Of a DNA stretch of 56,700 nt, positions 1 through 17,044 are shown one piece after another. The DNA is from an uncultured Monoglobus sp. Its GTDB lineage: Bacteria; Bacillota; Clostridia; Monoglobales; Monoglobaceae. The first letter of the stretch is position 1. Every line of letters begins with the position of its first letter. The notes below the pieces were generated by a model. It was not told where the DNA came from, did not search any database, and was given only the letters and a program-made list of their open reading frames with translations. Where the stretch lies: the NCBI GenBank assembly GCA_947624775.1, contig CANQLT010000004.1, positions 1 to 56,700 of the forward strand, given 5' to 3'. Both the position numbers and the translations under genes were made by a program.

Positions 1-3000
1 CAGAGGCTTCATGCCGTTTTCGCTGTCCCAGATAAACAGTTTGACTGTGCCCGAAGCGGGTTTCTTGAAATCAAGACCTTTAATCTCCGTGCCGCTTATA
101 TCATACATGCTGGCGGCGGTCAGAACCGTGTTCTCGCTGTATACCCCGATGATCAGCTTGGCCTTCGGCTCGGCGTCCGTGCCGTAGTATTTTATTTCCG
201 TGCTCAATGTTCCGTCCGCTCCATACGTCGCGCTTGCTATCTCATAGGGATATTCATGCGCTGTCGGAGTCTCAGTGGGAGTCGGCGTATCGGTCGGCTC
301 GGGAGTGTCGGTCGGTATGGGAGTATTGTCAAGCTCAGCAATGTAAATGTTGTCAACACCCAGCTCGATTATTTCGCCCTCATCGTTTGTGCCTTTTGTC
401 ATAACAGCCATACCTGTCATAACAAGGTGCGGTATCGCGCTTTCCTCAACTTTTATAGTGCCCTGCGCCAGAGATATTTCACGGCTTAGAACATAGTCCT
501 CTCCGTCTTTTTTGGTGTATACCTTAACGGCGTTGTCGGCCTTGTGGTATTCAACTCTCAGTGTAAACCACCTGCCGGGCGTGAAGTTGAAATCGGGTAT
601 AACGTAGTCAAACCCTCTTTCTCTTGTGTCGTCGCCACCCGATGAGAAGTAGTCGGTGAGTTTAAGGGTCGCGCCGTCGCCGGTCTTTACCTCAAAGGCT
701 CTGCCGTCGTCGGAGCCCGCGGAGTAGCTGTTATTGGGATCAACGTTGTTTTTGTCGTAGAATCTCAGCAGCACGTTGTCCTTTACAGGGGTGCTTATAT
801 TGAAATCCTGCTCAATGACGATAACTTCCGAGTCAATCGGGTCGGCGGGATTGTATGTAAATCCGTCCTGGCCGCTGCCCGTGTCGGTGAATTTGAGGTA
901 GTTATCGCCTTCGGCCTTTTCGTCAACTGCGGGAGCGACAGCGCCCTCGTTCGCTTGTGTTCTGTGGTTTATTGTCAGCTCTTTGCCGTTTTCGTTTGCG
1001 ATTTTTGATGTTCTGTCGGGATATGTCGTGTCCTTTGCGATAGAGTTGAAGTCCCATTTCTCGCCCTTGAGGGGAATAGGAGTGGGAGCGACCGTCGGCT
1101 CGGGCGTGATATACGGAGTTGGCTCGGGCGTGGGCGTCGTCTCGATCTTGTAGGGAAGAGCCTCAACATTTGGATTTGGAACCGCGATCTCGGCGGTCTC
1201 GGCTCCGTGGTTCTGGAGCGTCTGACTTTCGGCGTTCATCGGCTGCGCCAGGATATAGGCGAACAGCAGAGTTTTTGCCGCTTTCGCGCGGGTCACCTTT
1301 GCTTTGGGCTCAAGGACTGTGCCGAGCTTGACCGCTCCGCGCTCTATGGCCTGCTCGCTGCGCATAAGGCCGAGGTTGTAGGCCTCTTTAACCTTGCCGT
1401 ACAGCACGGGCGAGATCTCGTCTTTGTCCGTGAGAGCGCCCCAGCCCACAAGCGGGAAGTAAGGCGTGCCCTCATAGATAGCGTTCTGGTCGTAGTTGGC
1501 GTCGCCCGGCGCGGGCAGACCGTCATTGTTTGTCATGTACTCGCGTTTGTTCCACGCGCCGCTGTCGTTTTTGCCGTATTTCAGATAATAAGCGTCATAG
1601 AGTATCGCGCCCATTGCCTCGCGCGTCAGAGCCGCGTCGGACGCGATGGCTCCCGTGTCCACAAAATCGGGTTCTTTGATATATGTGGCGGTTATCGTTA
1701 TGTCCTTGTCAACATATTCGCGGTATTCCTTTTCATTCGTAACCGGCTCGCCGTTTATAAAGATTTGGTCGTTCAGATATCCCGGGTCGGCCACGGCGGT
1801 TATTCTGACCTCGTCTCTGTCGTTCACGAAAAGAGTCTCGGTGCTTTGCGGATAGTCGAGAGAGTAGTATCTCAGGCCGAACAGTCGTCCGTTTCCGCCG
1901 TGAGCTGTGAGGGTGTATCCTGTGTTTTGCTCAACGTCAAACTCGACGGTGCCGTATATTGTGGCTCCCGAGCCGTCGATAGTGTTGTTTATCAGCTTTG
2001 ACTGTATTGCGCCGCTCACATTGTTTTTAAGCTCGATATTCTTGTTGTCGTTAAAGCGGACATACAGCACCAGCTTACCCTTTGCCTTTGAGAAATAGGT
2101 CACGGGCTTTTCGGGAGTGGTGTTTCTGAACTCAATATAGTTTTGCGTAACAGCGCTGTTCTCGGGGAACGACGCCGAAGTGTCGGTTCCCTTTACAAAA
2201 TTCTCCGCAGGCGCGGTGACTGTCATATACGCATCGTCGATAACGCCGCCCGCTTCGATCGTGTCGGGAATGTCCACGCTGATCTGATCGAATTGGCTCT
2301 CGTTATAGGCGGTTATCGTGCCGCCGTCCGATTGGGTTATCGTTATCCTGTGCTGGCCTGCCGCGGGTTCTTCGGCGGCCTCGGCCGAGGCGGTTTCAAC
2401 CTCTGGGCCGTATTTTTCTTGAAGCTCGGCGTATGTCAGATTATAGCTGCCGAGGGCGCCCGGCTCAAGCTCAAAGACCGTTTCCATGCCGCGGGCAAAC
2501 TCGCCCACGGTGATAAGGTCGTTCGGCTTAAACAGGTTTTCGCTGTTTTTGTGCATCGCGCCAACGCGCAGTATTCTCTCGATATTGTCTCTGTAGTAAT
2601 AATTTTGCTCGGGCAGAGGCGTCGCTCCCGGAGCCACGTCCACCTGGCCTACATCCGCCGCCATTTCGGGGAAGATCGAGGTCCAGTCGCCCGATTTTGC
2701 CGCTTGCTGCGCCTCGGGGAGCAGATACGAGAACAGAGTTTTCATAAACTCTTTACTGGTGTATACGTCGTCGTCCGAGGTCGCCTCGTCGCAGATGTAT
2801 TCCATCATTATTCTGGCGAACTGCTTTGACGCGGATTCCTTGTATGTGGTTCCGTCCCAGTTGGAAACGCCGTTGGCCGAGTTTTCGGCGGGCGTCTCGC
2901 CAGCCTCGTATGAGCTGAATATATACAGCGGCTCGTTCTCGCCCAGCTTGCTCACATAGTCCTTGACGCCCTCATACATACCGATATATCCGACGCCCTC

Positions 3001-4155
3001 GTCGGCTTTCGCGGTATCGCGCATAATGCCCGTCGCGTCGGGGTTAAAGCCGTTGGGCTTGTCGGCGCCTTCGAGAGAGAAACCGTTGCCTCTCGGAACG
3101 GCCGAAACCAATATCGGGTGCATGCCTCTGGTTTTTATGGCTTTTATGTACATATCGAGCCACTGTTTATAAAGCGCGTTGTTCTCGTCGGGTGTGCCAT
3201 AGTTGAGGCCTCTGTCAAATCTGGTATGGCCGTCGGCCTCGTCGCCCTGAGCCGATGTCAGGAAAACATAATCGCCCGGCTTGCCTGTCAGCAGTATGTC
3301 GTTGAATCTGCCCTCGGTGTAGCTTCTCTTCATGCTTCTGCCGCCCATAGAGTAGTTCACAACATCTGCGATCTTGTCGGGGTCGAAATAATATTCAAGC
3401 ACCTGTCCCCAGGAGGAATAAGAGGACTCGTTGGTGTATGTCTTTTCGGTGGAGCCGCCCAGTATATATATGGTCGCCTTGTCGCCGGGCTCATTATTGG
3501 CAATCGGCGTTATCGAGATCGACTTGACCGTGACTGTCCGGCTGCTCGTCCTTGAAGGCATGGCGATCGGCTCTATGTCTATCTCAACAAAGTCCTGTCC
3601 GGTGGCAAAGTCGTATGACCATTTTGTATTGTTATTATCCCATGTGACCATGGTGTTCCTTTTAACGTTTCCCGCGTCGTCCCAGCCGGAGGTCCTTCTG
3701 ATTCGGTCATACTCCATGCCGGTCGGCGTGACCCAGGTGTTGTCTCTGTTGCTGGTTCCGCCCAGCTGCACCTCGATATGATAGGCGCCCGCGGGCAGGT
3801 CGGCTCTGTAGATCAGTCCGCCGTGATTGAGGTATTCGGCGCTGTCGCTCAAATATTTGCCGTTTCCTTCGGTCGCGTTCATGCCGTCGGCGGTAAGAGG
3901 GCGCGCCATGCTTACAGAGACAACCTGACGTTCCTCACCCGGCGGCAATATCATGCCCGATTCGGTAACAAAGCCCTGTTTTTTCTCGGCAGAGTAGAAG
4001 TAGTCGGTGTTTTTGGCGCCGCTGTCAAAGCCTGCGGCAAAGTCAACGCTGACCGAGGTTAGAGGCTCGTCGCCGCCTTCGGCAAACGAAACGCACGGCA
4101 GCGCGGAGATCAGCATAGCGATAACAAGCGTTATACCGAGAAATCTTTTTTTCAT
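1..4155 (-). CDS. Secreted rhamnogalacturonan-acetylesterase-like protein, catalytic residues lost (3' end outside window)
   Basis: At least 1385 residues, open to the window edge. The start at 4155 follows GGAGG and opens a signal peptide ending CVSFA. Layout: an N-terminal beta-sandwich (about 25-220), an SGNH/GDSL domain of the CE12 type (about 225-460), an SLH-like segment (about 515-562), a sandwich and Big-like region, a second SLH-like stretch (about 838-965), a Pro/Thr linker, a LamG-like domain (about 1027-1278), and a C-terminal module containing FIWDS. It is a paralog of residues about 1190-2150 of the protein at 7243-15108. Block I reads GGST instead of GDST (about 231), block III reads QGD instead of HND (about 301), and the final DGTH reads DGTT (about 435). 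The first loses Asp, the second Asn, the third the catalytic His. A non-catalytic binding or scaffold role is inferred. Confidence 0.85.
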   Translation of the reverse strand, partial: MKKRFLGITLVIAMLISALPCVSFAEGGDEPLTSVSVDFAAGFDSGAKNTDYFYSAEKKQGFVTESGMILPPGEERQVVSVSMARPLTADGMNATEGNGKYLSDSAEYLNHGGLIYRADLPAGAYHIEVQLGGTSNRDNTWVTPTGMEYDRIRRTSGWDDAGNVKRNTMVTWDNNNTKWSYDFATGQDFVEIDIEPIAMPSRTSSRTVTVKSISITPIANNEPGDKATIYILGGSTEKTYTNESSYSSWGQVLEYYFDPDKIADVVNYSMGGRSMKRSYTEGRFNDILLTGKPGDYVFLTSAQGDEADGHTRFDRGLNYGTPDENNALYKQWLDMYIKAIKTRGMHPILVSAVPRGNGFSLEGADKPNGFNPDATGIMRDTAKADEGVGYIGMYEGVKDYVSKLGENEPLYIFSSYEAGETPAENSANGVSNWDGTTYKESASKQFARIMMEYICDEATSDDDVYTSKEFMKTLFSYLLPEAQQAAKSGDWTSIFPEMAADVGQVDVAPGATPLPEQNYYYRDNIERILRVGAMHKNSENLFKPNDLITVGEFARGMETVFELEPGALGSYNLTYAELQEKYGPEVETASAEAAEEPAAGQHRITITQSDGGTITAYNESQFDQISVDIPDTIEAGGVIDDAYMTVTAPAENFVKGTDTSASFPENSAVTQNYIEFRNTTPEKPVTYFSKAKGKLVLYVRFNDNKNIELKNNVSGAIQSKLINNTIDGSGATIYGTVEFDVEQNTGYTLTAHGGNGRLFGLRYYSLDYPQSTETLFVNDRDEVRITAVADPGYLNDQIFINGEPVTNEKEYREYVDKDITITATYIKEPDFVDTGAIASDAALTREAMGAILYDAYYLKYGKNDSGAWNKREYMTNNDGLPAPGDANYDQNAIYEGTPYFPLVGWGALTDKDEISPVLYGKVKEAYNLGLMRSEQAIERGAVKLGTVLEPKAKVTRAKAAKTLLFAYILAQPMNAESQTLQNHGAETAEIAVPNPNVEALPYKIETTPTPEPTPYITPEPTVAPTPIPLKGEKWDFNSIAKDTTYPDRTSKIANENGKELTINHRTQANEGAVAPAVDEKAEGDNYLKFTDTGSGQDGFTYNPADPIDSEVIVIEQDFNISTPVKDNVLLRFYDKNNVDPNNSYSAGSDDGRAFEVKTGDGATLKLTDYFSSGGDDTRERGFDYVIPDFNFTPGRWFTLRVEYHKADNAVKVYTKKDGEDYVLSREISLAQGTIKVEESAIPHLVMTGMAVMTKGTNDEGEIIELGVDNIYIAELDNTPIPTDTPEPTDTPTPTETPTAHEYPYEIASATYGADGTLSTEIKYYGTDAEPKAKLIIGVYSENTVLTAASMYDISGTEIKGLDFKKPASGTVKLFIWDSENGMKPL

Positions 4156-4351: not shown

Positions 4352-5200
4352 TTACCGCATATGCTTTTTCGAGGCTGTGACCGTGTTGCGCATCAGCATA
4401 GCCACCGTCATCGGGCCCACGCCGCCCGGCACCGGAGTGATAGCTCCCGCAATTGGCTCAACATCGTCAAAGTCCACGTCGCCGCACAGCTTGCCGTTTT
4501 CGTCTCTGTCCATACCTACGTCGATAACGACCGCGCCGGGCTTTACCATGTCGGCCTTGACAAATTTGGCGATACCCACCGCCGCGACCAGAATGTCGGC
4601 GCGCTTTGTTATTTCGGCGAGGTTTTGGGTGTGTGAGTGGCAGGTCGTCACCGTGCCATTTTCGTGCAGCAGCAGCATGGACATCGGTTTGCCCACGATA
4701 TTGCTGCGGCCGATAACGACGCAGTTTTTGCCGTCAACGCTGACGCCGCTCTCGTGTATCAGTTCCATAATGCCTGCGGGCGTGCAGGGCAGAAAGTCAT
4801 AGTCGCCAATCATTATCTTACCCACATTGACCGGATGGAAAGCGTCCACGTCCTTGTCAGGCCTGATGTTGTTTATTATAACGCTGTCGTCAAGGTGCTC
4901 GGGCAGCGGCAGCTGAACCAGAACACCGTCTATCTTGTCGTCATTGTTGAGCTTTTCGACCAGATCGAGCAGCTCCCGCTCGGTGGTCTCCTCGGGCAGA
5001 CGGTGTATTTCCGAATATATCCCCAGGTCCTCGCACGCCTTTTCCTTGTTGCGCACATAGACCTTTGAGGCCGAGTCGTCGCCTACCAAGACCACCGCGA
5101 GACCTGTCTGCTTGCCCTGCGCTTTAAGCTCCGCCGCCTCGTCTCTGAGCTCGTCCTTTACTCTTTGCGATACTGTTTTTCCGCTGAGAATTTTTGCCAT
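4352..5200 (-). CDS. folD: Bifunctional methylenetetrahydrofolate dehydrogenase / methenyltetrahydrofolate cyclohydrolase
   Basis: A 282-residue cytosolic enzyme of the usual family length. FolD interconverts 5,10-methylene-THF, 5,10-methenyl-THF and 10-formyl-THF with NADP, supplying one-carbon units for purines and formyl-methionine. Visible family features are the [12 protein letters not shown] segment with the catalytic Tyr and Lys, VQLPLP, the DVDAFHPVN loop, the nucleotide-binding GRSNIVGKP, and the C-terminal [10 protein letters not shown]. The start at 5200 follows AGGAGGAAATC. The first 77 bases overlap the 3' end of ygiQ in another frame, so the two are probably co-transcribed and translationally coupled. 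A terminator follows directly, making ygiQ-folD a short operon. Confidence 0.97.
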
Positions 5201-7242: not shown

Positions 7243-10200
7243 TTATTGATTTTTAACTCTTGACATTATTGTCGCTGCTTCCGCACGTGTCGCGGGATCC
7301 TTGGGATTGAACATTCCGTCCGAACCTGTCAGAATTCCCTGCTCCGAGAGAGCCGCCACATAAGGCAGCGCGTAATCTTCGATCGCTGCCGCGTCGGAAT
7401 AGTTGACAGCCGCCTGCGAGCTGAGGTTCAGATATCTGCCGACGATCGCTGCGATCTGCTCGCGTGTGATGTTGTCGTCGGGGCTGAATGTGATCTCGCT
7501 TGTGCCGTTCACTATGCCTGCCGCCTGACCTGCCGCGACGTAAGGCGCGAACCAGTCTGTGTCCGCAACGTCGGCGAATGTCGAGGCGCCGCCGGGTGTG
7601 ATGCCGAACAACATTACGGCTATCTTGGTGAACTCCGCTCTGGTGATCGGGTTCTCGGGCACGAACAGCGTGGGTGTCTCACCGTTGATGATTCCCGCGT
7701 TGTAGAGGTCCATGATATATCCGTATGCCCAATAGCTTTCGGGAACATCCTCAAATACCTGGGTTCCGGGCTGAACGGGAGCTGCTGTCGCGCCTGTTCC
7801 GGGAATGAGCGTAGCCGAGGGCTCCGATGTGGCTCCGGGTTCCGCGGTGGCCGCGGGCGTGGGTGTCGCCGCTGAGCCGCCTGTTGAGAAGTTCGAGTTT
7901 GTGCCTGTGCCGCCGTATGATGATGAGGGTCTGTGCGTCGGCAGAGGAGCCTTTGTGGGCTCGCTCGAGGGTTCCGATGTGGGCTCGGGCGCTGCTGTCG
8001 GCTCAAACGTGTTTGTTACGTTAATGTCAACCGAGTATGTGTTGCCCTTGTCGTCCTCGATTATAACGGTGTTTGTTCCGTTGGGCAGCGTGCTGAGGAA
8101 TTCGGGTGTAAAGGTGATTACGCCGTTTTCAACCTTGTAGCTGTTTGCGGGAACGGCCGCGCCGTTAAGTGTTACCTGAGATACGTTCGCCGCCGCGTCG
8201 GGAAGCGTGATGATAACATCCTCGGGAGCCGCACCGTCAAATTTCTGATCGGGGAGAGGCTCAGGCGTGGCAGTGGGTTCGGGAGTTGCGTCAGTTCCCG
8301 GAGTGGGAGTAGCGTCTGTTCCCGGTTCGGGTGTCGCGTCTGTTCCCGGAGTGGGAGTAGCGTCGGTTCCCGGTTCGGGTGTAACGTCAGTTCCCGGAGT
8401 GGGAGTGGCGTCTGTGCCGGGCTCAGGAGTAACGTCAGTTCCCGGAGTGGGTGTCGCGTCTGTTCCGGGCTCGGGAGTGGCCGTCTCCTCGGGAGCCGAG
8501 GACTCGCCCGGCTCGGGAGTTACGTCTGTTCCCGGAGTGGGTGTCGGCTGATCAGGAACCGGAGTCGGCTCTGCTGTCGGCTCGGGTGTCGGTGTCGCGG
8601 GTACCGGAGTGGGCAGTTCTTCCTCGGATACGCCGGTGTAAGGCGTTGAGGGAGCCTGCTCGTTGGGTGCCGCGATGTCAGCCACGGTCGCAGCTGCCTT
8701 GTTGGTGTTGTCGGGTATGAGCTGGCTCTCATTCTTTAAGGGCTGAGTTAAGATGTAGCAGAATACCAGCGTCTTGGCCGCCTTGGCTCTTGTTACCTCG
8801 GCCTTGGGCTCAAGCTGATTGCCATTCTGTATAGCGCCTCTCTTAATGCCTTGCTCTGTTCTCATAAGACCTAAGTTATACGCTTCCTTGACCTTCATGT
8901 ACAATCCCATATCAAGCTGATCCGTGTCTGTGAGAAGACCCCATCCTGTCTGCGGAATATAAGGCGTTCCGTCATATTTTATGTTCGGGTCATAGTTCGG
9001 GTCGTCGGGCGAGAGCGCCGCGCCGTTCTGATCCATATAGGGAACCTTATTCCATGTTCCATCTTCGTTTTTGCCGTACGCCGCGAGATAAGCGTCATAC
9101 AGGATTGCTCCCATTGCCTCGCGCGTCAGAGCCGCATCGGAAGCGATCATCGTTTGCTCGTATGTCTCGGGCTCCTTCTCAAATACAGCCGAAACTGTTG
9201 TGTTCGCCTCTACCTTTATGGTATGTTCTCTTGTTGCGGCGGCTTCCTTTCCGTCAACAAGGATAGCCTTGAATACATATCCGCTGCTCGCGCTTGCGGC
9301 GATCTTAACGCTGTCGCCCGCGTTTACATTAAGCGATGTATCACTCTGCGGATAGCCTGCCTCATACATTAATCCGTAAAGCTGTCCTGTGCCGCCGTTG
9401 CAATACAATTTGTACTCGTTTCCTTCTGTTACGTCGAAAACAACTTCGCCTATAACAGCCGTATTACGATGATCTGCATCAGCTTTTTCACCCTCGATAT
9501 ATTTGTCTACCTTTGAGCCGTCAGCTAAATTCTCAATAGAAATTGCCTTGGTGTTGTCAAATTTCATGTACAGAGTTATTGTGCCCGACGCTTTTGCGGT
9601 GTAATACACTTCTTTATCGCCGTTTTTATCATCGGCCTTTCTGAATTCAACGCCATTGACAGTGATATCCGGATTGTTCTTAAAGACAGCGTTCTTATCA
9701 GACTTTTTAACTATGGTTTTAGGAGCTTTCATGGTATAATAGTCGTTATCCCATGTCTGTTCAGGCGTTACGCTGTCTGTAATATCGGTCGTGGCTGTTG
9801 TGTGCTGTGATTCATTGTAAATAACAACTTTTCCGCCTTCAGCGGGCTGCTGAACCGTTACCGTAAATTCTCCGTCAGCCGCCTGCGCGGTCTCTTCGAT
9901 AGAAGCCGCTTCGAGAGGCTGAGCGTTCTTTTCCTTGAGCTCATCATAAGTGAGAACATAGTTATTCAGAGTGTTTGTCGGCAGACCGAATACTGTCTCC
10001 ATGCCTCTTGCAAACTCGCCTACCGTGATCGTCTGAGTGGGCTTGAAGTTGTTGTCCTTATCCTTATGGAGCGCGCCTATCTGCAGAGCCTTCTCGATAT
10101 TGGGTCTGTAATAGTAGTTATTCTGCGCCTGTTTCTCGGCTCCGGGAACAACGTCAACCGCGCTTACGTCGCTTGCCATCTCGGGGAATACGTCGGACCA

Positions 10201-13200
10201 GTCGCCGCTCTTGGCCGCGTTCTGAACCGAAACGGGCATATAGGATACCAGGTCCGCCATGATATTCTTGTCGGTATATGTGTCTGTTCCGGCAACGCTC
10301 TGGTCATAGATACTCTGGAGCATTATGCGGCACCACTGTCTTGCCGCGGCTTCACGGTAATGCGTGCCGTCGCCGCTGTTGCCGTTCGCCGCTCCGTCGG
10401 CAGGAGTTTCGCCCGCTTCGTAGGTATTGTAAATATAATATACCTCATTCGCGTCGAGCTTGTCGATATAGTCCTTTGCTCCCGCATACAATTCAACCAA
10501 TCCGACTTCGGAATCCGATGTTGCTTTCGCTCTCATGCGGCCCGGTGAGTCGGGGTTAAAGCCGTTGGGTTTTGTGGAGCTTTCACTGTACTTTCCGCTG
10601 CCTGTTCTGGGCATTGCGGTAACCAAAACGGGAGTCATGCCGCGCGCTTTGATCATCTTGACATACATGTCGAGCCATCTGTCATAGTTGTCATTGTTTG
10701 CCTGTAAATCAGAACCTACGGACGCGCCGCGCACAAATCTGCCTGTGCTTACAGTCTCATCATTGTGAGCCGAGTGAATGAATACATAGTCGCCCTTTTT
10801 GCCTCTGATCAAAGGCTCGTCGGTTCTGCCCTCGTTGTAGTTGCTCTTCATAGCTCTGCCGCCCATTGAGTAGTTGACAACGTTAACCTTATTCGCGTCA
10901 AAGTACTGATAGAGCGTCTGGCCCCAGGAGCTTATCGTCTCGTTGAACGAGTATGTCTTTTGCGTCGAGTCGCCCAGAATATGGATAGTGGGCTTGCCGC
11001 CCGCGGGATTTACGCCGAGAGGCGTTATCTTTATCGACTTAACGCCAACAGTCTGCGCCGCGTCTTTTGTGGGCAGCTTGTTGGGCTCGATCTCGATCTC
11101 GATAAAGTCCTCGCCGGTGGCGAAGTCATAGGACCATACGTTGCCGTTCCACGCAGCCGAAACTGTTCTGGGAACGTTGCCGCAGTTATCCCATGTGCTT
11201 GTGCCTGTCAGTCTGCCGGCTTCCATGCCTGTGGGAGCGACCCATGTGTTTGCGGCGTCGGCAACCTCAACTTCAAGGTGATATGCGCCGGGAGCGCCGG
11301 TGTCATATCTGTAAATCAGTCCGCCGTTATTGTAATCATCCGACGCTTTATTATAAAGATACGTTCCGTCGGACTCGGTAACGCTTGCGCCGCCATCGCC
11401 GATCGTGATCTTGCTTGTGTCCGCAACCTCTCTTCTGTAGGCGTCGGGCATGATAGCGTCAGACTTTGAAACAAAGCCGCTGCCGCTCTGCTCGCTGTAT
11501 ACCGGAACAGTCGTCATCTTTGTGAAATCAACGTTCGCGATGGGCTCCATAGGCTCAGCCGTAGCCGGAACCGGAGTAGCCGTAGCGGGAGCCTGAGTTG
11601 CAGGAGCCTGTGTAGCGGGAGCCTGAGTTGCAGGAGCCTGTGTAGCGGGAGCCTGAGTTGCAGGAGCCTGAGTAGCGGGAGCCTGAGTTGCAGGAGCCTG
11701 AGTAGCGGGTGCCTGAGTAGCGGGTGCCTGAGTAGCGGGCGCCTGGGTAGCCGGAGCCTGTGTAGCCGGAGCCTGGGTAGCCGGTGCCTCGGTTGCGGGC
11801 GGCTCTGGAGTCGCGTCGGGTTTTCCGAGTTCTTCGGCGCTGCCCACGATAACAACGCAATATGTATCGGGCAGCCATGTTTCTGTTGAATCAAATGTTA
11901 TAGTGCTGTTGTCGCTTGTCATCTCAATATCTATCGTATAGTATTTGAGAACATAGTTTTTGTCATCCGGCTTTTCGGCGAGAGGCGTGCCTGCCGTCGC
12001 TGTGTAAGTTTTGCCGTTTACTATAGCCTGAATATTCTTTTCGTTGTTATATCCGACATAGTAAATTTTATATTTGCCCGCGGGCGCTTCAAGAGTTATG
12101 GTGGGATGGGTAGCCTTGTCGCCCGTGCCGCCTACATAATTTTTGTAGTGTTCCGTAAATTTCGAAGCCATAACAGTCTTGTCGGTTTCGTCGGCAAACA
12201 ATCCGGCAACGCCCTCGTCAACGCCTTCAACGAATTTGAATCCCGATACGCCGTCGCACTGATTTCCGCCGTCAACGTCGTTGAAAGGATATACGCCTTC
12301 GCCCTCGGGCGTCTCGGGGAGCTCGCCTGTTACAATTTTCTTATATGTAACTTTGACATCCTGAATATTAAATTCCTCGGTGCCGGCGTATATAGCCATT
12401 TTGAGGTCGCCTTTTGCGGCATTTGCCGGGAAAGAACCGTATGTAACAGGAGTCGCGGTTTTGCCGCTTCCGCTGCCTGAAGCGTCAAGAGATACAGTCT
12501 TATCCTTATAATTAATAGTCACGGCTACTTTATTCGGAGTTGTGCCGTCGAATTTACCGGATACATTAAGAACCTGATGTTCGCTGTTGCTTGCTCCGCT
12601 GAATCCCTGCGTGTTGTCAACCGTATCAAGCTGCGTCCAGTGACCGAGTTTCGCCAGCACAAATCTGTTTTCAAGCTTGCCGTTTGAGCAACCCTTGGTC
12701 ATATCCGGTGTTCCGTGAACCAAATCAATAAAGCTGTTGCCCGATGTATTTTTGTTGGTTACATTCAGAGTGTACTCTACTTTAACAATATCACTGTTTA
12801 CAAGATTTTCGGCGTCAGCGCCGGCAGCTTTGGCAAGATCAATAAGGTCATACACTTTATTTTTTTCGGTAGAAGCGTATGCTACATCAAGATTAACCGT
12901 GGCATCGATTTGATTCTGCGCCGTGATCGTCAGCGGAACATCAGTTCCGGTAACGCCCTTGACTGTGGTCTTGCCGTCAGCGGGTTCCGTAATGGTAAAG
13001 TCACTGCTTGATGATGAAATACTTACATCGTATTCGATACCGTCAGCGCTTGCAGGTATGTTTTCGATTTTAGCTTCAACAGTATTTTTGCCCGCGGGCA
13101 TAACTATTGACTGGCTCTTGATATCAGCGCCGTTTTTAGAAATTGTGATGTCATAGCTGTAGTCCTGAGAAACAGACGCAGAAGCGTTGACAGTCACAGG

Positions 13201-15108
13201 AATAGCAAACACGTTTGTAGTATCAGTTGTGGGCTCGATCGTGATCGGAACCGTTACTTTATCACCGATCAATTTATTGCTCTTATCTCTAACGTAGAGC
13301 GTGATCTCGCTGTTTATCGCGGGCTCGCCTAAGGCGGGACGCGTTACTACCAGCTTGCCGTCTTTCAAAACAGCGTTGGGTGAAGAAGATTCCCACTTAT
13401 ACTCAACGTTGTCGGGTGCGGTGGGCAGATCGACCTCGGTTTCGTTACCGGCGGGGATCTCAACCTTTACATTATTGATAGCCGCGTCAACATTTGCGTA
13501 TTGAGCCGTAATTCCCATCGGGTCCCAATCATCCGTAAAGGTTTTTCCCGTTGTGTCACAGGCTGCCGAGAGGTAATTTCTGGGGTTAAATTCCAGAACC
13601 TGCCATTCGTCGATCACGGTTCCCATGCCGTAGCCGCCTTCCGCAACAGATTTGTTTTTAATACGATTGGAAAGATCCACAGCCGCTCCGCTTGTGTTCT
13701 TTGTTCCGTACTCGTAAAGACGCGCGAGGCCGTTTTCGGCTCCGAAACGCGCCCAGCCTTTGGGGTCGATGGTTACAGCGGAATTGCCTATTTCACCTTT
13801 ATCGTCAATCGTTGCGTTGACAAATGTTGCCTGGCCGCTTGCGCCCCAGGGTCCGCCGAAGTTTGAGGTGCCGCCGAGCTTGTTTTCATTATAAACCGTG
13901 CAGTTCCAGAAAAGATATCCGTACTTTCTGCTCGCGTCGGTATTGGGTGTAGTGAGCGGATTGCCATAGGCGTAATCGCTGAATCCGGCAAAACCGAGTT
14001 TACATTCGTTGAATACTGCCGAGGCGCTGCCGTAAATATAATCGGTTCCGCCTATAAGCGTGCATTTATTGAAATACGCCCTGCCGTTGGAAGCCCATAC
14101 CGAGTCCTGATTGCCTTTCGCGGTAACGTTTTCAAATGTTATTCTGTCGCCCAATGTGGCTATGGCATGGCCTCTCTCGTTATACGCCGATGATTTAACC
14201 AGCCAAGCGCTTTCGCCGGCATCAAAAGTGCCGCCGTTCGCAATATATGCCTTGACTTTGTCAAGATTAACGCCCTTAGTTTTAGAGTCCCATATGTCTA
14301 TGTCGGCGGAGGGCTTTTTTGGCTCTGTAGTATCATCGCATATTGTAAGGCCGAACTTGTCGCCGCTGCGCAAAGGCAGAACAGAGCCTTCCTCTGGTGT
14401 GACGTGACCGTCGATCTGGCCCTGAGTTACCATTGTGGGAATACTGTTTAAAATATTGAAGTCTTTTATGGTAATATCAGTCGAAGATTGTGTAACGATC
14501 AGAGCCGCCATCTTGTCGTATGACCAGCCGAGACCGCCCAGATTTTTGAGCTGGCTGTTAACAGGCGTGTCTTTATGAGCGACGCCGTCGGTGTCATAGT
14601 ACGATATCGTGGTTATGCCGTCAAGTTTCTGACCGATTTTGTACGGTGTAAATTTTTCATCATTGGCATTATAACCGTTCCATGTTTCCGGTTTTGACCA
14701 GTCGATCTTGGGGTCATAAAGTCCGGTGAGGTCGGTGTTTGATGTGCAGTAGCCGGTGCAGAAGTACCAGCTGAGGTTTACTTTGCCCTCCGTGCCGGGG
14801 GTCTGCTGCAGCGTGATAAATTTCGCGCCGTCGATGCGCACCTGCTCCTCATAGTTGCCGGGCTGCACGTTGATCGTGACGCGCTCGGCATCGCTCTGCG
14901 GATTGAGTTCCTTTGCCTTCGCGACCGCCGCTCTGATGGTCTTGAAGTTGTTGCCCGTTTCAGCTTGTGACGGGTCAACCGTCAGGGTAGTCGGGCCTGC
15001 CGCTGCCTGAGCCTCGCCATCCGGAGCGGCGAACACGGTCAATCCCGTGAACATGGTGCCAATCATCGCGACAGCCAGAATCAGGCTGAGCAATCGTCTT
15101 TTTAACAT
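7243..15108 (-). CDS. Giant SLH-anchored pectin methylesterase / rhamnogalacturonan acetylesterase
   Basis: 2621 residues with signal peptide (ends TVFAA); start 15108 follows AAGGAGG. Order: CE8 pectinesterase domain (about 40-480) with GNQDSVW (about 333) and GGTDYIYG (about 353) holding the two catalytic Asp; Ig-like and beta-sandwich binding modules (about 520-1095); an ATQAP linker (about 1101-1179); N-terminal sandwich of the acetylesterase (about 1190-1370); CE12 SGNH domain with intact GDST (about 1378), HND (about 1448) and DGTH (about 1581); SLH-like and Big-like modules; TPEPGTD-rich linker (about 2163-2283); a second linker; and three canonical SLH repeats (about 2445-2621). It should strip methyl esters from homogalacturonan and acetyl groups from rhamnogalacturonan while bound to the S-layer/cell-wall polymer. 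The usual CE8 catalytic Arg (GRPW) reads GGPW here. Confidence 0.93.
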   Translation of the reverse strand: MLKRRLLSLILAVAMIGTMFTGLTVFAAPDGEAQAAAGPTTLTVDPSQAETGNNFKTIRAAVAKAKELNPQSDAERVTINVQPGNYEEQVRIDGAKFITLQQTPGTEGKVNLSWYFCTGYCTSNTDLTGLYDPKIDWSKPETWNGYNANDEKFTPYKIGQKLDGITTISYYDTDGVAHKDTPVNSQLKNLGGLGWSYDKMAALIVTQSSTDITIKDFNILNSIPTMVTQGQIDGHVTPEEGSVLPLRSGDKFGLTICDDTTEPKKPSADIDIWDSKTKGVNLDKVKAYIANGGTFDAGESAWLVKSSAYNERGHAIATLGDRITFENVTAKGNQDSVWASNGRAYFNKCTLIGGTDYIYGSASAVFNECKLGFAGFSDYAYGNPLTTPNTDASRKYGYLFWNCTVYNENKLGGTSNFGGPWGASGQATFVNATIDDKGEIGNSAVTIDPKGWARFGAENGLARLYEYGTKNTSGAAVDLSNRIKNKSVAEGGYGMGTVIDEWQVLEFNPRNYLSAACDTTGKTFTDDWDPMGITAQYANVDAAINNVKVEIPAGNETEVDLPTAPDNVEYKWESSSPNAVLKDGKLVVTRPALGEPAINSEITLYVRDKSNKLIGDKVTVPITIEPTTDTTNVFAIPVTVNASASVSQDYSYDITISKNGADIKSQSIVMPAGKNTVEAKIENIPASADGIEYDVSISSSSSDFTITEPADGKTTVKGVTGTDVPLTITAQNQIDATVNLDVAYASTEKNKVYDLIDLAKAAGADAENLVNSDIVKVEYTLNVTNKNTSGNSFIDLVHGTPDMTKGCSNGKLENRFVLAKLGHWTQLDTVDNTQGFSGASNSEHQVLNVSGKFDGTTPNKVAVTINYKDKTVSLDASGSGSGKTATPVTYGSFPANAAKGDLKMAIYAGTEEFNIQDVKVTYKKIVTGELPETPEGEGVYPFNDVDGGNQCDGVSGFKFVEGVDEGVAGLFADETDKTVMASKFTEHYKNYVGGTGDKATHPTITLEAPAGKYKIYYVGYNNEKNIQAIVNGKTYTATAGTPLAEKPDDKNYVLKYYTIDIEMTSDNSTITFDSTETWLPDTYCVVIVGSAEELGKPDATPEPPATEAPATQAPATQAPATQAPATQAPATQAPATQAPATQAPATQAPATQAPATQAPATQAPATQAPATQAPATATPVPATAEPMEPIANVDFTKMTTVPVYSEQSGSGFVSKSDAIMPDAYRREVADTSKITIGDGGASVTESDGTYLYNKASDDYNNGGLIYRYDTGAPGAYHLEVEVADAANTWVAPTGMEAGRLTGTSTWDNCGNVPRTVSAAWNGNVWSYDFATGEDFIEIEIEPNKLPTKDAAQTVGVKSIKITPLGVNPAGGKPTIHILGDSTQKTYSFNETISSWGQTLYQYFDANKVNVVNYSMGGRAMKSNYNEGRTDEPLIRGKKGDYVFIHSAHNDETVSTGRFVRGASVGSDLQANNDNYDRWLDMYVKMIKARGMTPVLVTAMPRTGSGKYSESSTKPNGFNPDSPGRMRAKATSDSEVGLVELYAGAKDYIDKLDANEVYYIYNTYEAGETPADGAANGNSGDGTHYREAAARQWCRIMLQSIYDQSVAGTDTYTDKNIMADLVSYMPVSVQNAAKSGDWSDVFPEMASDVSAVDVVPGAEKQAQNNYYYRPNIEKALQIGALHKDKDNNFKPTQTITVGEFARGMETVFGLPTNTLNNYVLTYDELKEKNAQPLEAASIEETAQAADGEFTVTVQQPAEGGKVVIYNESQHTTATTDITDSVTPEQTWDNDYYTMKAPKTIVKKSDKNAVFKNNPDITVNGVEFRKADDKNGDKEVYYTAKASGTITLYMKFDNTKAISIENLADGSKVDKYIEGEKADADHRNTAVIGEVVFDVTEGNEYKLYCNGGTGQLYGLMYEAGYPQSDTSLNVNAGDSVKIAASASSGYVFKAILVDGKEAAATREHTIKVEANTTVSAVFEKEPETYEQTMIASDAALTREAMGAILYDAYLAAYGKNEDGTWNKVPYMDQNGAALSPDDPNYDPNIKYDGTPYIPQTGWGLLTDTDQLDMGLYMKVKEAYNLGLMRTEQGIKRGAIQNGNQLEPKAEVTRAKAAKTLVFCYILTQPLKNESQLIPDNTNKAAATVADIAAPNEQAPSTPYTGVSEEELPTPVPATPTPEPTAEPTPVPDQPTPTPGTDVTPEPGESSAPEETATPEPGTDATPTPGTDVTPEPGTDATPTPGTDVTPEPGTDATPTPGTDATPEPGTDATPTPGTDATPEPTATPEPLPDQKFDGAAPEDVIITLPDAAANVSQVTLNGAAVPANSYKVENGVITFTPEFLSTLPNGTNTVIIEDDKGNTYSVDINVTNTFEPTAAPEPTSEPSSEPTKAPLPTHRPSSSYGGTGTNSNFSTGGSAATPTPAATAEPGATSEPSATLIPGTGATAAPVQPGTQVFEDVPESYWAYGYIMDLYNAGIINGETPTLFVPENPITRAEFTKIAVMLFGITPGGASTFADVADTDWFAPYVAAGQAAGIVNGTSEITFSPDDNITREQIAAIVGRYLNLSSQAAVNYSDAAAIEDYALPYVAALSEQGILTGSDGMFNPKDPATRAEAATIMSRVKNQ
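8260..8620 (-). repeat. Pro/Thr-rich TPEPGTD/TPTPGTD linker repeat
   Basis: In-frame, roughly 24-bp and 48-bp imperfect repeats encoding alternating ATPTPGTD and VTPEPGTD units. A likely flexible, extended linker between the catalytic part and the SLH anchor. Confidence 0.8.
11572..11806 (-). repeat. 15-bp tandem repeat encoding ATQAP units
   Basis: About 13-15 near-identical 15-bp units, each coding Ala-Thr-Gln-Ala-Pro, in two sequence variants that often alternate. It separates the CE8 half from the CE12 half. The uniform DNA suggests recent expansion. Confidence 0.9.
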
Positions 15109-15863: not shown

Positions 15864-15928
15864 TTCGGGAACTTTTTAGCGAAATAGTCGTCTAATAAGT
15901 ATAAGTGTTTATATTAGGAGGAATTATT

Positions 15929-17044
15929 ATGAGAAAACTAAAACTTATTTCCGCGGCTCTTATCGCGTGCATGCTGCTCGGAGCGGCCTCGTGCGCCTTT
16001 GCCGAGGTCGGTGATGCAGTCGGAAGTATTTATTCGACCGATATTCTGGCGTATGTCAACAACCGCCCGATACCCTCATATTGTCTTGACGGCAAAACAG
16101 CCGTTTTGGTCGAGGATCTTGACGTGGGCGGGATCGACGGCGACGCCCACTACGGCTTTAATTGGTGGTACGACGACAACACCCGCACCCTTACCGCGAA
16201 TTCGGACGGCTCATCGGGCTACGGTGAGCCCCTCAATATCGAGCGCGGCGAGGTCGGAAAAATCCTTGACAATATTTACGAGACCGATATTAAAGTCATT
16301 TTCAACGGGCTTGAGGTACCGAGCTTCGCGATAAACGGCAAAACCGCGGTTTGCATCGAGGATTTGGGAACGGTTGAGCCCGACGGCCCCAACGCCGATT
16401 ACGGCTATTCGAAGTATATGTGCAATTTCACATGGGACGGAGACACGCGGGAGGTGCGGCTCTACACCTATCAGACCAACAACCTGCGCGACATTCCGCT
16501 TCACAAAATGGTGTATCAATTTACCGACAACAAACTGTCGGTGTCGTTCGACCAGCTTAATTATTATTTGAATCAGGTCTCCGGCGATTGCTCCGATGAG
16601 TTCGTCGCTGACTTCAATCATATAAAGCCGGTGCTGCTGGACGGCGAGACGGTCGGCACAATGTATGTCGACCATGACGGCTTTCTGAGCTATAACGTCG
16701 ACACCTTGAAGATATTTGACATGAAAAAGGATCTGGAAGTCATTCTGAGCTATGACGAGGCGGTGAAGTTTATCACCGGGAATTACGAGATCTGCGACAG
16801 CCGCGAGATCGGCGGCGCGACCGTGTATCTCGCGAAGGACAAAGACGGAAACAGAGACTTGTTCTACGCCTTAAAGCAGGGCGGACTGGTGCTTGAGTCG
16901 GAATTTGAAAACTCATACACGACCGTGGAATTCTCGGACTACGAGGACGGCCTGTATGTCAAGGTCTATCCCTTCGCGGGCCCCCACGGCGCCACCACCA
17001 TGCGCCAAAAAGTCAATGCGGAGATGTACCAACGTAGTAATTAG
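15929..17044 (+). CDS. Secreted protein with two stalk (copper-amine-oxidase-N-like) domains
   Basis: 371 residues, start 15929 behind AGGAGG. The first 28 or so residues form a signal peptide ending CAFAE. It is not a convincing lipoprotein, since the residues before Cys are GAAS. Two related repeats of 50-60 residues follow (about 35-95 and 112-180), each with the pattern YVNNRPIPSYCLDGKTAVL or VIFNGLEVPSFAINGKTAV, then VEDL. These resemble the stalk domains common in secreted clostridial proteins. The C-terminal half is not recognised. The last four residues and the TAG stop come from an inserted heptad repeat (17031-17065), so the original C-terminus has been replaced or trimmed. Function unknown; extracellular location likely. 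Confidence 0.85.
   Translation: MRKLKLISAALIACMLLGAASCAFAEVGDAVGSIYSTDILAYVNNRPIPSYCLDGKTAVLVEDLDVGGIDGDAHYGFNWWYDDNTRTLTANSDGSSGYGEPLNIERGEVGKILDNIYETDIKVIFNGLEVPSFAINGKTAVCIEDLGTVEPDGPNADYGYSKYMCNFTWDGDTREVRLYTYQTNNLRDIPLHKMVYQFTDNKLSVSFDQLNYYLNQVSGDCSDEFVADFNHIKPVLLDGETVGTMYVDHDGFLSYNVDTLKIFDMKKDLEVILSYDEAVKFITGNYEICDSREIGGATVYLAKDKDGNRDLFYALKQGGLVLESEFENSYTTVEFSDYEDGLYVKVYPFAGPHGATTMRQKVNAEMYQRSN

Follow-up and report, generated by a model that had tools for sequence, protein, structure and literature searches.

A CE12-like protein of Monoglobus conserved without the catalytic histidine and oxyanion asparagine of its active paralogs

Introduction

The carbohydrate esterase family CE12 is represented by the rhamnogalacturonan acetylesterase (RGAE) of A. 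aculeatus, whose catalytic and oxyanion residues are Ser9, Gly42, Asn74, Asp192 and His195 (PMC2483496), and which has arginines along its cleft that are considered to bind galacturonate (PMC9487903). In the SGNH lipase SrL, replacement of Ser, Asn or His by alanine each abolishes activity (PMC10779480). A non-catalytic use of an SGNH active site is known from CtCE2 of Clostridium thermocellum, which binds cellulose through this site with the help of added aromatic residues (PMC2661963). Inactive paralogs of pectin-degrading enzymes have been described in leaf beetles, where GH28 pectinase pseudoenzymes coexist with active paralogs, are maintained by purifying selection and are of measurable importance for digestion (PMC6549527). 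In the literature searched, we found no described CE12 pseudoenzyme.

The stretch of DNA analysed here (the window) is contig C4, 56.7 kb long and included in full, from a Monoglobus genome bin of 2.77 Mb. This genus of pectin-consuming gut Clostridia has M. pectinilyticus among its members. We compared a degenerate CE12-like gene at the start of this contig, here termed pseudo-CE12, with an intact twin in the same window and with its relatives in 12 Monoglobus genomes, each representing a species, and in a wider sample of the class.

Results

The contig ends within the gene, and the encoded protein is short of about 10 C-terminal residues when compared to the complete ortholog of genome G004. 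The esterase-like domain makes up only part of it, the remainder consisting of other modules (Table 1). While the SLH-like segments are also present in the twin, pseudo-CE12 does not possess the C-terminal SLH triplet of the latter and carries a lectin-like module and a tag at its end instead. Profile searches contributed little, as no Pfam family, including Lipase_GDSL_2 (PF13472), was assigned to the pseudo-CE12 protein at E ≤ 1, the canonical CE12 domain of the twin was likewise missed, and a Pfam and NCBIfam search of the pseudo-CE12 protein gave a sub-threshold match to PaeY only. The twin carries a long Ala-Thr-Gln-Ala-Pro repeat linker.

Table 1. Features of the pseudo-CE12 gene and its twin (positions in the window)
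Feature	Position	Strand	Basis or remark
Whole pseudo-CE12 gene	1..4155	-	1385 open codons, 3′ end lost at contig start
Signal peptide-like N-terminus (MKKRFLGITLVIAMLISALPCVSFA)	4081..4155	-	read by eye from the sequence
N-terminal jelly-roll domain, YxiM-like (galactose-binding-like), faster evolving	3496..4065	-	median dN/dS 0.19
Degenerate SGNH/CE12-like domain, residues 224-470 (approximate limits)	2746..3486	-	motifs, alignment, fold match
Block I, GST for DST, G234-S235-T236	3448..3456	-	nucleophile Ser235 kept, D234G
Block II, Gly-Gly-Arg kept, residues 271-273	3337..3345	-	Gly271-Gly272 invariant
Block III, TSAQGD for HSAHND	3241..3258	-	H300T, H303Q, N304G; D305 kept; Q303-G304-D305 at 3241-3249
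Block V, W-DGTT for DGTH	2845..2859	-	pseudoenzyme-specific W433, D434 kept, H437T; D434-G-T-T437 at 2845-2856
Two SLH-like segments flanking an InlB-repeat-like segment	1201..2610	-	present in active twin too; weak Pfam SLH match, first segment only
Concanavalin-A/LamG-like module	325..1071	-	low-confidence model; common to RG-lyase PL11 and pectinesterases of the genus
C-terminal tag-like domain	1..258	-	recurs in pectinases of the genus
Intact twin, 2621 residues: pectinesterase, canonical CE12-like domain, CBM_X2-like domain, three C-terminal SLH repeats	7243..15108	-	Pfam and motifs

Pseudo-CE12 and the twin are 46% identical over 1036 aligned columns. The sequence-only reading had noted GGST, QGD and DGTT in place of GDST, HND and DGTH, and all three changes are present and in register in this alignment: block I reads GGST versus GDST in the twin (10963-10974), block III TSAQGDE versus HSAHNDE (HND within 10759-10776) and block V WDGTT versus DGTH (10360-10371). 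We mapped the residues to RGAE by direct alignment for blocks I-III and via the alignment with paralogs for block V. By this mapping, pseudo-CE12 has lost the catalytic His (H437T), the oxyanion Asn (N304G) and the Asp of the GDS motif (D234G), and two more histidines that are invariant in the active paralogs are replaced as well (H300T and H303Q). Ser235, Gly271-272, Asp305 and Asp434 are retained. Hence, the replacement of the Asn and the catalytic His was read correctly, but the statement that all expected catalytic residues are gone, with only the block I Ser remaining, went too far, as pseudo-CE12 also keeps the Gly-Gly of block II and the Asp of block V.

Arg273, 283, 312, 343 and 355 are invariant across pseudo-CE12 and active rows. 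In contrast, position 433 is Trp in all six pseudo-CE12 rows versus Gly or Ser in the active rows, which places an added aromatic residue near block V. Besides D234G, H300T, H303Q, N304G, H437T and this Trp, the switched and fixed positions include Q237E, F242N, E244S, M353V, P375T and Y413F. After normalisation, the fixed substitutions are only weakly concentrated near the catalytic residues (8/33 versus 7/73, p=0.05; p=0.18 within the SGNH domain), and we draw no argument from this clustering.

Active CE12 domains contain four histidines, which occupy the same places in most rows, and all four are gone from pseudo-CE12. Two histidines are left in its domain, neither of them conserved, and the domain of the ortholog in genome G003 contains none at all; a search of the whole SGNH domain of the six orthologs for an invariant His found none. 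Since pseudo-CE12 retains none of the active-domain histidines and one ortholog has a domain free of His, a relocated Ser-His-Asp triad is excluded. Whether other residues complete the triad is thus answered by the sequence itself, which offers no conserved His to serve. Judging from the mutagenesis of other SGNH enzymes, pseudo-CE12 is very probably not an ordinary acetylesterase. The retained nucleophile Ser and block V Asp might still permit a weak residual or altered esterase that removes acetyl or other acyl groups by a mechanism without His; we regard this as very improbable, as His and Asn are both lost with no other invariant His, and the change of either one to alanine suffices to abolish the activity of SrL.

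Pseudo-CE12 is present in six of the 12 Monoglobus species, namely that of the window and five others, whose orthologs share 78-95% identity over 485 residues. Each of the six carries GGST, TSAQGDE and WDGTTY, whereas all 27 paralogs with every block readable have GDST, HSAHNDE/R and DGTH[YF]; one further paralog, which breaks off before block V and is canonical as far as it can be read, is not counted among the 27. G009, the one genome among the 12 examined that consists of a single contig, lacks the gene. No ortholog-level match outside the genus was found in a 391-genome sample of the class. This search yielded five new loci, three of which are canonical in all blocks; a fourth (L072, 36% identity) has GDST while its other blocks were not read by our motif pattern, and the fifth (L069, 53% identity) escaped the pattern altogether.

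To describe the constraint on the gene we used dN/dS by the Nei-Gojobori method, given as medians over pairs with dS below 1. The median is 0.048 for the SGNH domain of pseudo-CE12 and 0.187 for its N-terminal domain, and three active sets give 0.058, 0.157 and 0.088 for their SGNH domains. Among the orthologs, the loops of the former active site show hardly any variation. In the phylogenetic tree, the six pseudo-CE12 sequences form one clade (100/100), sister to a group of active CE12 (96/91), and the stem of this clade measures 0.94 changes per site versus 0.18 for the active sister. The low dN/dS together with a single clade on a long stem is the pattern of a duplication, a burst of change and subsequent constraint.

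The truncation at the contig edge might raise the suspicion of a decaying pseudogene, a sequencing error or a misassembly. The occurrence of the same substitutions in six separate genome bins excludes chance or assembly error. As the six species also have intact reading frames, each about 1400 codons long, and a dN/dS of 0.05, we reject this explanation as having a negligible probability. The domain is not decaying. The frame had been read as open over at least 1385 codons, which is confirmed, complete orthologs having open frames of 1395-1435 codons from stop to stop. The suggestion that the protein is under selection yet unlikely to be an esterase is strongly borne out by the substitutions common to all six orthologs, the domain dN/dS and the lack of a conserved His.

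Near-invariance of the substituted loops is also what an active site would show. Together with the retained Ser, block II Gly and two Asp, it could speak for a new catalysis on pectin that dispenses with His and the oxyanion Asn and employs Ser235, Asp434 and Asp305 with the new Glu237 and Trp433, for example in a lyase, hydrolase or transferase step. We know of no SGNH enzyme that works without His. A review on pseudoenzymes does warn of migrated catalytic residues (PMC10211241). Here, however, the oxyanion Asn has gone too and nothing positive points to any particular reaction, so that we consider a new activity improbable.

The structure of residues 31-515 was modelled with a pLDDT of 78.7 and a pTM of 0.84. 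The modelled domain has the alpha/beta/alpha fold of SGNH proteins, its closest matches being RGAE (1deo; Z 19.3, rmsd 2.9, 202 residues) and YxiM (2o14). Confidence is low for the loops of the former active site (residues 237-247 and 415-435), where the pLDDT drops below 50; Trp433 falls in the latter loop and is placed near block V by the alignment. The model of the C-terminal module is too poor (pLDDT 54.7) for a firm assignment of its fold, although Foldseek ranks mostly concanavalin-A-like lectins, LamG domains and galectins at the top.

This lectin-like module and the C-terminal tag recur in all 12 Monoglobus genomes. Thirteen host proteins were scanned with Pfam, of which three gave no informative domain; the other ten comprise four PL11 rhamnogalacturonan lyases, five CE8 pectinesterases (two fused to GH95) and one PL1 pectate lyase. 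PL11 lyases are also among the closest full-length matches of pseudo-CE12 outside its own orthologs. The module and tag (also at loci L103-L114) are unnamed in Pfam and represent a candidate new carbohydrate-binding or sorting module. One copy of the lectin-like module (G003:C7:29825-30556) lies inside an open frame of 8786 codons, an exceptionally long protein.

Upstream of pseudo-CE12 in the window lie two genes, which by resemblance we take to be folD-like and a YgiQ-like radical-SAM gene, followed by the twin. By first start codon, the frames of these two genes overlap by 77 bases (5124-5200, minus strand), and the true folD start may lie downstream. Divergent from the pectinesterase-CE12 (PME-CE12) gene, a 379-residue protein with a signal-like N-terminus is encoded (15905-17041, plus strand), which is about 91% identical in G004 and has no Pfam match. 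An active CE12 is found on the same stretch in every pseudo-CE12 neighbourhood that was read, in two gene orders. G000, G004 and G002 have PME-CE12 (or a CE12-bearing remainder at the contig edge), then ygiQ and then the pseudoenzyme; in G004, a pair of ABC half-transporters and a second CE12 then follow, and in G000 the ABC pair and second CE12 are located on contig C95, collinear with G004, and would thus adjoin the pseudoenzyme. In G003, G010 and G007, the pseudoenzyme is followed by the ABC pair and PME-CE12. Of the six genomes read, five have such a pair of adjacent ABC half-transporters, a membrane and an ATPase subunit, next to CE12 genes (G004:C12 and G000:C95, loci L039 and L046; G003:C1, L042).

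Dead paralogs act as partners of active ones in other enzyme families, and the chief rival to a ligand-binding role is that the dead domain binds active CE12 paralogs and regulates, stabilises or escorts them. The proximity of an active CE12 in both gene orders, the 46% identity and co-extensive architecture of the twin and the strong constraint across the SGNH domain are all consistent with such a role, and activation by a dead paralog is known (PMC5201418). The clustering may, however, merely trace the duplication or a common pectin locus, and some relatives among the remaining six of the 12 species keep an active CE12 without the pseudoenzyme. We therefore regard a partner role as rather unlikely, though the most serious of the alternatives.

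Discussion

On balance, and with modest confidence, we favour the reading that pseudo-CE12 is a secreted, catalytically dead, ligand-binding CE12 paralog of the rhamnogalacturonan I (RG-I)/pectin system, whose old cleft binds pectin or RG-I. An ancestral Monoglobus would have duplicated an active CE12-type acetylesterase, and in one copy a burst of change would have removed every active-site histidine, the catalytic one included, together with the oxyanion Asn, before strong purifying selection froze this copy. The former catalytic cleft may now be a non-catalytic site for acetylated pectin, most likely RG-I, in which the galacturonate backbone would be held by the conserved arginines, the remaining Ser and Asp and the new Trp433 of the former block V loop would contact the sugar, and turnover would be prevented by the lack of His and Asn. 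Through its lectin-like modules, which also occur on RG-I lyases, the protein could stay on the same substrate, and the pseudoenzyme might thereby raise or sense local pectin for the enzymes encoded nearby.

A substrate-binding pseudoenzyme is favoured by the invariance of the RGAE-type arginines together with the precedent of CtCE2, while we infer RG-I as the likely ligand mainly from the C-terminal modules common to PL11 lyases and pectinases. The sequence-only reading had proposed a pectin-binding or scaffold protein; its first part thus gains indirect support from the kept arginines and the modules, whereas no specific evidence was found for the second, and no cohesin or dockerin Pfam match is present in the pseudo-CE12 protein.

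Since the active sister occurs in the same genomes, the two proteins form a matched pair with which the role of a dead carbohydrate esterase can be tested. Furthermore, counts of pectin esterases based on fold or homology overstate activity, as six of the 12 Monoglobus species have one CE12-like gene that should not be counted.

Among known systems, the GH28 pseudoenzymes of leaf beetles resemble pseudo-CE12 in being dead pectin-degrading paralogs that are kept, but differ from it in fold and organism. CtCE2 provides the likeness of an SGNH carbohydrate esterase cleft with inserted aromatics; it keeps Ser and His, is still an active esterase and belongs to a different CE family, whereas pseudo-CE12 is devoid of the His and its binding is predicted. 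With the RGAE of A. aculeatus (1DEO), pseudo-CE12 shares the fold, the block I Ser, the block II Gly, the block V Asp and the arginines equivalent to Arg43 and Arg53, and with B. subtilis YxiM (2O14) it shares the N-terminal jelly roll. Compared to both, its catalytic His, oxyanion Asn and GDS Asp are replaced, and all four histidines of the active paralogs are lost.
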